A stretch of 64,000 nucleotides of DNA from Phormidesmis priestleyi Ana (GTDB taxonomy: Bacteria; Cyanobacteriota; Cyanobacteriia; Phormidesmidales; Phormidesmidaceae), in NCBI GenBank assembly GCA_001314865.1, contig LJZR01000001.1, positions 124,001 to 188,000 on the forward strand, in the 5' to 3' direction. Positions within the stretch are counted from its first letter, which is position 1; every line of letters starts with the position of its first letter. The notes beneath the pieces are model-generated. The model ran no database searches, was not told the DNA's origin, and saw nothing but the letters and a program-made list of their open reading frames with translations. A program made the position numbers and the translations under genes. Positions 8,202-9,353 of this stretch are shown in pieces.

Positions 8202-8858
8202 TTAAAGGTCGGGCGATCGCATCACGGCTCCATTCAAGCCGCAAAGATTGTTTTTGAGTCGATTGCGTAAGGCTTCGCCATCGATTAACTGCTCGCTATA
8301 GCTGCGTTGCCATACGGGCGAACCGGGCTGATTGCGCAGAAGGTTGATGCGCTTGGCGCTTGCGGCTTTGAACCCAGCGATAAAGGAGGTAAGGGCACGG
8401 GGTTTACCGGGGCCCTGCTTCCGTTTACCCACGGTGCGCGGATCTAGCCGGTGGGTGGTAACTGGGGTGAGCGATCGCGCTAGCAAGTCGTCAGGATGGC
8501 TGGGCAAGTAAACGAGCGCCTGTAGCTCATCAGGCAAAATAACCCACTGGTCTAGGGCAATTTCCCAATGTCTGGCAGCTACCAATATCTCATCAGCGAC
8601 GACTTGCGCAAGCAACAGGGCAGTCGCCTGGGTCTGTTGCTCACGCTGATCGTTATTCAGACCGCTATTCAGACTGTCTGCGAGATCATCATTTTGCTCA
8701 TTCTGTAGCGGGTTGCTTGAACTTGTTGATGTTTTATTTGTTGATAGATGATCTGCCGACGGTACAAAAAGACTGCGGCTATTATGAGTTTTGAGCTGCA
8801 CATAGTAGAGTGCGGCTTCGACCGAAGGAATATTATTAAGTCTAGAATTTTTTATCAA
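8202..8858 (-). CDS. RAYT/Y1-transposase-like protein lacking the HUH histidines
   Basis: 218 residues from a TTG at 8858; no ATG exists in the frame, so the start is uncertain. The outline of a REP-associated tyrosine transposase is recognisable: YYVQLKTHNSRSLFV near the N-terminus, a middle WVILPDELQALVYLP where RAYTs read W-V-x-M-P-N-H-x-H, then SFIAGFKAASAKRIN and GSPVWQRSYSEQLI near the end. Both metal-binding His residues of the HUH motif are replaced, so nicking activity is unlikely. Residues about 40-75 are a low-complexity Asn/Ser/Gln insert. It ends 13 bp from the convergent larB stop. It may be a domesticated or decaying copy. Confidence 0.7.
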   Translation of the reverse strand: MIKNSRLNNIPSVEAALYYVQLKTHNSRSLFVPSADHLSTNKTSTSSSNPLQNEQNDDLADSLNSGLNNDQREQQTQATALLLAQVVADEILVAARHWEIALDQWVILPDELQALVYLPSHPDDLLARSLTPVTTHRLDPRTVGKRKQGPGKPRALTSFIAGFKAASAKRINLLRNQPGSPVWQRSYSEQLIDGEALRNRLKNNLCGLNGAVMRSPDL

Positions 8859-8993
8859 CGGACGGCCTGAACTATTGCAAAATGCCTGCCGTTAGACTGC
8901 CCAACTCAACATGTAAAGTCACGAAAAATCTGTTCAATAGGCTGAGAGTGCGATCGCTGAAACCCCTATTGAAATGAGGGGATCTGCCCTACA

Positions 8994-9353
8994 CTATTCG
9001 CCTTGAAAATGGCCTTGAAAGTGACCTTGAAAGTGACCTTGAAAACGGATCAAAAAAAAGAGAAGCTCATGAGCTTCTCTTTTTTCGTTTAGGTTTAATC
9101 CGTTTAGCTTTAAATCGTTTGAACCAGCATTCGGAACGGTGTTTGGATTGATGTTGGAATCGATATCCTTGCGAGCCGATGAGTCTTTCCCAAAGCGGTC
9201 TTTTTTGAGTGAGCCGTCAATGCCTGCTTGCAATCGTTTACGTAACTGCTTTTGTCTTTTTATGTACTGCCGCTGTTTCGCAGAACCGCCTCGCCCTTTG
9301 TGGTTTCTTCCCTGGTTACGTGGCGACTCCCAGCGCTTTAGCTGCTGAGCCAT
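8994..9353 (-). CDS. Small basic hypothetical protein with a repeat-derived tail
   Basis: 119 residues from ATG 9353. The first 60 residues are strongly basic (RNHKGRGGSAKQRQYIKRQK, then LRKRL), suggesting nucleic-acid or ribosome contact; I do not recognise the family. The last 30 codons run across a perfect 32-bp palindrome (9054-9085) and four 12-bp repeats, giving a tail of FQGH units. The ancestral gene may have ended before the palindrome, which looks like its terminator. It lies upstream of, and on the same strand as, the RAYT-like gene. Confidence 0.55.
   Translation of the reverse strand: MAQQLKRWESPRNQGRNHKGRGGSAKQRQYIKRQKQLRKRLQAGIDGSLKKDRFGKDSSARKDIDSNINPNTVPNAGSNDLKLNGLNLNEKREAHELLFFLIRFQGHFQGHFQGHFQGE
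9001..9048. repeat. Four 12-bp units at the 3' end of the small basic ORF
   Basis: CCTTGAAAATGG, CCTTGAAAGTGA twice, and CCTTGAAAACGG in tandem, encoding three GHFQ steps just before the stop codon. Confidence 0.9.
9054..9085. terminator. Perfect 32-bp palindrome, probable bidirectional terminator
   Basis: Left arm AAAAAAGAGAAGCTCA is followed directly by its exact complement TGAGCTTCTCTTTTTT, with no spacer. The GC core flanked by A and T runs is the form of a rho-independent terminator in both directions, yet it lies inside the open frame of the small basic protein. Confidence 0.7.

Follow-up and report, generated by a model that had tools for sequence, protein, structure and literature searches.

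REP-associated tyrosine transposases (RAYTs) have been called domesticated on the grounds that they are single copy and vertically inherited (PMC8049555). The survey of Quentin et al. (2018) was reduced from 924 to 722 sequences by dropping those without complete core motifs, which were suggested to be non-functional (PMC6006769). E. coli TnpA-REP binds DNA through helix alpha-3, whose K82 touches the bulge; GTAG is contacted by Q95 and R104 (PMC8266576). In Nostoc punctiforme, the J-Box (i.e., GGGaAtacT) is the extended -10 element of SigJ-dependent hormogonium promoters; its three G residues are absolutely conserved, its A and T are almost absolutely conserved, and sigC has one (PMC6495340). 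In the open-licence PMC literature, we found neither a catalytically dead RAYT family nor a RAYT in the SigJ regulon.

Here we analyze one open reading frame in a window of 64,000 nucleotides of the Phormidesmis priestleyi Ana genome. A preliminary description had read it from the window alone as a RAYT-like protein without HUH histidines, possibly domesticated, and had suggested comparing its fold with Y1 transposases, searching for orthologues with the same His loss, estimating dN/dS, and looking for REP-like hairpins genome-wide. The comparisons presented below indicate that a cyanobacterial family has kept a former transposase, its cutting machinery gone, for a very long time under strong selection. 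The explanation that we prefer, and regard as fairly probable, is that the protein is exapted and non-catalytic, a probable hairpin binder expressed with the motility sigma cascade, for which we infer both the binding and the target.

Results

The HUH-less RAYT derivative occupies positions 8202 to 8858 on the minus strand (218 codons; TTG start), and the frame is intact, as described earlier, with no internal stops. An in-frame stop (TAA) lies 34 to 36 bases upstream of the TTG, overlapping a conserved promoter-like element, and TTG is the first in-frame start codon after this element in 26 of 48 copies; the TTG start therefore fits. The proposed kinship with RAYTs was borne out by NCBIfam NF047646 (REP_Tyr_transpos; 30.4 bits, E = 3e-7, below the 80-bit cut-off) and by the match to the Y1 fold presented below. 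NF047646 also matches 23 of the 29 family-alignment members at E ≤ 1e-3. Nothing relevant was found in Pfam for the window protein, including Y1_Tnp at E ≤ 10 (1 of the 29 members matches Y1_Tnp), and a PDB sequence search with the HUH-less protein or profile gave no relevant match.

The reported HUH loss was likewise confirmed: codons 109 to 113 (8520 to 8534, minus strand) read PDELQ (P109-D110-E111-L112-Q113) where RAYTs read PNHxH, and both histidines are gone. Two further losses, absent from the preliminary description, emerged from the family alignment. Codon 204 (8247 to 8249, minus strand), in the catalytic Tyr column of RAYTs (YIxxNP), is Asn, and the metal-binding Asn column four codons later is Leu. 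Codons 154 to 175 (8334 to 8399, minus strand) form a predicted helix that corresponds to alpha-3, with which TnpA-REP binds DNA, and that is near-invariant in the family; the WQRSYSE strand (codons 183 to 189; 8292 to 8312, minus strand) is retained. The window copy also has an inserted stretch near its N terminus and a longer loop; codons 33 to 77 (8628 to 8762, minus strand) are insertion-rich, poorly conserved, and peculiar to this copy, with largely low model confidence. No second copy was found in the window's genome (5.93 Mb), and the nearest named relatives are in Phormidesmis genomes. Judged by its sequence, the window ORF is derived from RAYTs and would not be a functioning RAYT, since the defining catalytic features fail.

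The suggested orthologue search covered 63 genomes of the order (Phormidesmis, Leptolyngbya, Nodosilinea, and Adonisia; all 63 are placed in one family) and returned the same His loss in 55 of them, with one HUH-less gene per genome; the orthologues are not all frameshifted. A profile search matched 56 of the 63 genomes at E ≤ 0.01, and the tally of 55 was drawn by hand from this search, frame reading, the alignment, and the reading of additional places. The alignment contains 93 rows from 98 unique matches; rows shorter than 150 residues were dropped apart from one named exception, one row (L107) was added from a related-locus search, and two identical sequences (L070 and L071) share a row. 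All 38 catalytic rows retain the histidine pair together with the catalytic Tyr and the Asn. None of the 55 HUH-less rows has both histidines (eight keep one, i.e., three the first and five the second), another residue takes the place of the catalytic Tyr (E. coli Y115) in 55/55, and the metal-binding Asn (E. coli N119) is replaced in 53/55, with Asn in the other two. Named strains in the family include Leptolyngbya sp. PCC 7375, PCC 6406, and Nodosilinea nodulosa PCC 7104.

Eight of the 63 genomes lack the HUH-less gene, which is thus dispensable somewhere. One of them has catalytic-type pieces only (G012), another has a catalytic-type copy (G035), and six (G038 to G041, G050, and G060) have no match to the profile. 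The idea that some genomes hold two or more dead copies was rejected after 20 further places had been read: 18 contained catalytic-type copies or fragments, one proved to be the opposite contig end of the G059 copy, with the same residues, and one (L233) gave nothing. In a sample of the phylum, 68 of 386 genomes had a match, and all 27 loci fetched outside the order, which were the stronger matches, keep the HUH motif.

In a maximum-likelihood tree built from 142 columns that exclude those of the HUH motif and the Tyr, a single branch splits the 55 HUH-less rows from the 38 catalytic rows (support, 100/100; present in 100% of 200 bootstrap trees). In the established view, the HUH motif and the Tyr are the ancestral state in Y1 transposases. 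The tree itself is unrooted, and it is on the basis of this ancestral state that we read the direction of change as loss rather than gain.

AlphaFold2 models (28 sequences) were obtained for the window protein (pLDDT, 79.9; pTM, 0.72) and for its Phormidesmis RL_2_1 relative (pLDDT, 82.6; pTM, 0.76). Foldseek matched both to Y1 transposases only among PDB chains at E ≤ 0.001 (29 chains for the window model and 30 for the relative), so the suggested structural comparison did yield a Y1 match. The top 16 VIA-align entries for the window model are all Y1 transposases, including IS608 (Z = 13.3) and REP-bound E. coli TnpA-REP (4er8; Z = 12.2, rmsd 2.6, 121 residues). The relative's model gave Z values of 12.8 and 11.6 for these two, and the next unrelated entries scored 9.2 and 8.1.

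Residues were mapped to E. coli TnpA-REP (i.e., H59/H61, W94-Q95, Y115, and N119) through a profile of 14 catalytic relatives that matches 4er8 (E = 2e-4). The family has lost H59/H61 (as a pair), Y115, N119 (53/55), and the R104 equivalent, together with the N-terminal R..RL..Y.Y and the C-terminal NP..W..D motifs. It keeps the W of the WQRxY strand in 100% of rows (W183, 55/55), the Q in 93% (Q184), the R in 89%, Y187 in 100%, and E189 in 91%. In the alpha-3 equivalent, L156, F159, A161, K164, A165, A168, K169, R170, I171, N172, and L173 are each present in 95 to 100% of rows, and K164, A168, R170, N172, and L173 in 55/55. Most of these alpha-3 columns vary among catalytic RAYTs; the alpha-3 and WQRxY columns were retained or became more uniform as the active site disappeared. 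In our reading of the motif, which lies outside the profile-based mapping, K164 would be the equivalent of K82. Since R104, a GTAG contact in E. coli, has no counterpart, the specificity must have changed. By alignment and model, the chemistry appears lost and the gripping face retained, and from the DNA-binding helix and the WQ motif we infer that the family protein still binds nucleic acid.

It is also conceivable, if rather unlikely, that nucleic acid binding was lost too and that the present use of the fold is in protein-protein contacts, e.g., in a motility or envelope complex. Compared with catalytic RAYTs, A161, A165, and A168 are more fixed, for which packing or a partner could be the reason, and the loss of the R104 equivalent points the same way. 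However, the basic residues K164, K169, and R170 of alpha-3 are kept, as is Q184, and their counterparts lie in or contact DNA.

Strict scans of 500-bp flanks identified hairpins of the GTAGGGGCG..CGCCCCTAC type beside 5 of the 38 catalytic relatives and GTAG-tagged REP hairpins in none of the 55 flanks of HUH-less genes. The REP pattern GGGGCGNACN{2,8}GTNCGCCCC (GGGGCG-type), the one pattern used in the genome-wide search, was found in 24 of the 63 genomes and in none of the seven genomes of the window's genus. On these counts (0/55 versus 5/38 flanks; 0/7 genomes), an association of the HUH-less gene with REPs was rejected, and the REP-like hairpins that the preliminary description had proposed to look for were not found in the genus with this pattern. 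In seven genomes with the HUH-less gene (G000, which is the window's genome, G009, G018, G052, G053, G054, and G056), there was no NF047646 match at E ≤ 1e-10. PF01797 matches in the window's genome comprise one weak piece and two frames with internal stops, the latter being broken Y1_Tnp (IS200-like) frames at G000:C69:419-718 and C131:2120-2470. Some genomes thus keep the HUH-less gene with neither a GGGGCG-type REP nor an intact catalytic RAYT that we could find.

These counts bear on the suggestion that a catalytically dead RAYT regulates active RAYTs or REPs in trans, as a dominant negative or a REP-binding silencer. Such a role would suit the hairpin-binding helix and WQ motif, which active RAYTs have as well, and active RAYTs are also present in many genomes of the family. 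We nevertheless consider it unlikely, given the seven genomes without an NF047646 match, the broken or weak Y1 matches that are all the window's genome otherwise offers, and the absence of the REP pattern from the genus and of REP hairpins from the flanks.

Upstream of the gene, an element reading TGGGCAGTCTA (8893 to 8903, minus strand) ends 34 nt before the TTG and exactly matches TGGGMANNCTA. In the upstream alignment, it is accompanied by a weakly conserved upstream half (GAKRNT; here GTGACT, 8917 to 8922, minus strand) that may be a -35 hexamer. Eight or nine of the nine specified positions of TGGGMANNCTA are matched in 48 of 54 family upstream regions (32 in full), in 1 of 127 upstream regions of neighbouring genes at the same loci (none in full), and in 4.1% of dinucleotide shuffles (0.17% in full); the element was at first read as a possible operator, so that the J-Box interpretation is post hoc and the control gene set was run afterwards. 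This element, which lies shortly ahead of the start, has the GGG, the A, and the T of GGGaAtacT (48/54, with at most one mismatch). TGGGMANNCTA therefore fits the J-Box and is a predicted SigJ-type extended -10.

In the window's genome, a longer form of the pattern has two zero-mismatch sites, one before the HUH-less gene and one 57 nt before sigC (NCBIfam SigC, 674.9 versus a cut-off of 554). Among the sigC loci of 27 other genomes, two of them with partial genes, TGGGMANNCTA is present in full or with a single mismatch at 23 (2.1 expected by shuffling), and a one-mismatch form also precedes a sigC gene outside the family (L217). Allowing one mismatch, the longer pattern is not enriched in the window's genome (19 sites versus 20 for the reversed control); it is enriched in G022 (55 versus 18). 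The upstream DNA was also considered as a dispersed repeat, and this was rejected: in its own genome it matched only itself, apart from short weak matches mostly over the part holding GCGATCGC.

Nine catalytic RAYTs from two tree clades carry GGGNANNNT at a distance like that in the HUH-less family, ending 101 to 107 nt before the core Tyr-Phe codons; these nine were grouped after five had already shown the element, and among the other 29 only one (L146) reaches 8 of 9 positions, without the GGG. In these nine (L122, L124, L010, L014, L081, L025, L057, L073, and L076), the J-Box-like element lies shortly before the start. Their expression looks as if it were tied to the motility sigma cascade, and since these catalytic relatives have the element in common with the family, the promoter class appears to be older than the loss of catalysis.

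The element might instead be an operator bound by the HUH-less protein itself (i.e., autoregulation), and its travelling with the gene and its presence in the nine catalytic relatives would accord with this. We regard this as quite unlikely, because the element matches the published extended -10 and stands before sigC, a known J-Box gene, including, in the one-mismatch form, the sigC gene outside the family.

Other J-Box-like sites were observed elsewhere. The element lies upstream of a PilH-type response regulator gene in G015 and G020 (with a 12/14 match in G016), and a search of 16 further genomes at E ≤ 1e-40 recovered no orthologue of this regulator, which is therefore no more than a lead to a second conserved J-Box target. 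In G015 (L198, 3990 to 4019 and 6386 to 6415), and also in G020, two zero-mismatch sites lie 2.4 kb apart. One of the L198 sites stands 57 nt ahead of a CheY-like gene that belongs to a response-regulator/CheW/MCP cluster, and the other precedes an apparent remnant of a duplicated response regulator. Another zero-mismatch site (L201/L173; G015:C5:1932845-1932874) stands 110 nt ahead of an actin-like gene with distant similarity to the filament-morphology protein FcmB (33.6 bits, far below the cut-off of 300).

The position of the HUH-less gene changes from clade to clade but is conserved inside each. An M48 peptidase gene lies nearby upstream at 23 of 55 loci, a Ser/Thr kinase gene (domain assigned by eye) at 20, and a RimM gene (also by eye) is convergent at 20; in the window's genus, the order MurA-M48-RAYT holds. 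A small, basic ORF without a Pfam match (ORF119; 8994 to 9353, minus strand) adjoins the gene in the window, and in several genomes a sequence that conserves its first ~50 residues sits between the M48 gene and the RAYT gene. Between this ORF and the HUH-less gene, a 14-bp hairpin with flanking A/T runs (9054 to 9085) is a likely terminator, which suggests that the HUH-less gene is an independent transcription unit. Short tandem repeats with a CCTTGAAA-type unit were seen by eye beside the hairpin (approximately 9000 to 9045).

The dN/dS estimate proposed in the preliminary description gave a median (NG86) of 0.195 for the HUH-less family (159 pairs), tighter than the 0.43 of catalytic RAYTs (128 pairs); values were pairwise, with dS between 0.05 and 1.5, and are descriptive because pairs share branches. 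The window copy is absent among the 40 closest pairs listed, and it matches the family in 29 of the 35 columns whose conservation reaches ≥85%. By this comparison, purifying selection appears to maintain the HUH-less gene as a host gene present once per genome. The earlier view that the frame is not plainly a decaying pseudogene is upheld by the family conservation and a dN/dS of ~0.2. The domestication proposed at the same time gains support from the loss of catalysis, purifying selection, one origin, positions conserved within clades, and the Y1 fold.

A decaying pseudogene or recently inactivated transposase copy, to which the lost catalytic residues and the insertions and TTG start of the window copy might point, is highly improbable given a copy in 55 of 63 genomes, a dN/dS of ~0.2, and a single ancient origin, and was rejected for the family on conservation and dN/dS. 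That the protein is still a nuclease via other residues is hardly credible: nothing speaks for it beyond the single histidine in 8 of 55 rows, the HUH pair and Tyr are absent in 55/55 and the metal Asn in 53/55, Y18 and Y187 are common to catalytic RAYTs, and, apart from D89, E90, and D103, the rows show no obvious new set of conserved His, Tyr, or Asp residues.

Discussion

Under the preferred explanation of an exapted hairpin binder, the ancestor would have been a cyanobacterial RAYT that most resembled subclass 2.4 (group 4) and already had a J-Box-like promoter. The HUH histidines, the catalytic Tyr, the metal-site Asn, and the C-terminal tail would have been lost once, in the ancestor of the Phormidesmis/Leptolyngbya/Nodosilinea family, and purifying selection would afterwards have maintained the gene, in single copy, for the host. 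Alignment and model show that the Y1 fold is still there, as is the alpha-3/WQ surface with which TnpA-REP holds hairpin DNA, and the most likely role would be that of a non-catalytic binder of hairpins or other structured single-stranded DNA or RNA. Transcription would most likely start from a SigJ/SigF-type J-Box promoter, and co-expression with the motility/hormogonium sigma cascade is suggested by the promoter element that the gene has in common with sigC. A gene with a motility-type promoter has thus probably become a nucleic-acid-binding host protein.

A more specific version, which we put forward tentatively, is that an active REP transposase wired to the hormogonium/motility cascade lost its chemistry and became a family-wide developmental nucleic-acid-binding regulator. 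This regulator would be a hairpin-binding single-stranded DNA/RNA chaperone or repressor, i.e., a Y1 exaptation without HUH or Tyr. Because the fold and the DNA-binding face were kept after catalysis was lost, even in genomes in which we found neither a REP nor an intact RAYT, selection for transposition is unlikely.

Among known systems, the HUH-less family resembles RAYT/TnpA-REP subclass 2.4 (group 4 of Bertels) in its fold, motif order, WQRxY strand, alpha-3, and N-terminal strand; the assignment of the ancestor to this subclass rests on motifs given in PMC6006769 and not on a tree with its sequences. In contrast to that subclass, the family is without the HUH pair, the Tyr, and the NP/W C-terminal tail, has the Asn in 2 of 55 rows, and is single copy, with no flanking REP found. 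The window protein is like E. coli TnpA-REP in its fold (Z = 12.2) and in keeping the W94-Q95 equivalents, whereas the equivalents of H59, H61, Y115, N119, and R104 are lost in the family. The predicted promoter element resembles the Nostoc punctiforme J-Box, as a GGG-n-A-n3-T extended -10 located near the start and also before sigC; SigJ dependence is a Nostoc punctiforme result. A J-Box-like element is common to the HUH-less family and the nine catalytic RAYTs.

The sequences set aside by Quentin et al. (2018) are like the HUH-less family in being Y1-like with an incomplete HUH/Y core. This family would escape any survey in which Y1 proteins are set aside as non-functional for want of HUH/Y motifs. 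The HUH-less family separates binding from catalysis; the predicted J-Box class and the named strains make a RAYT-type host function directly testable.
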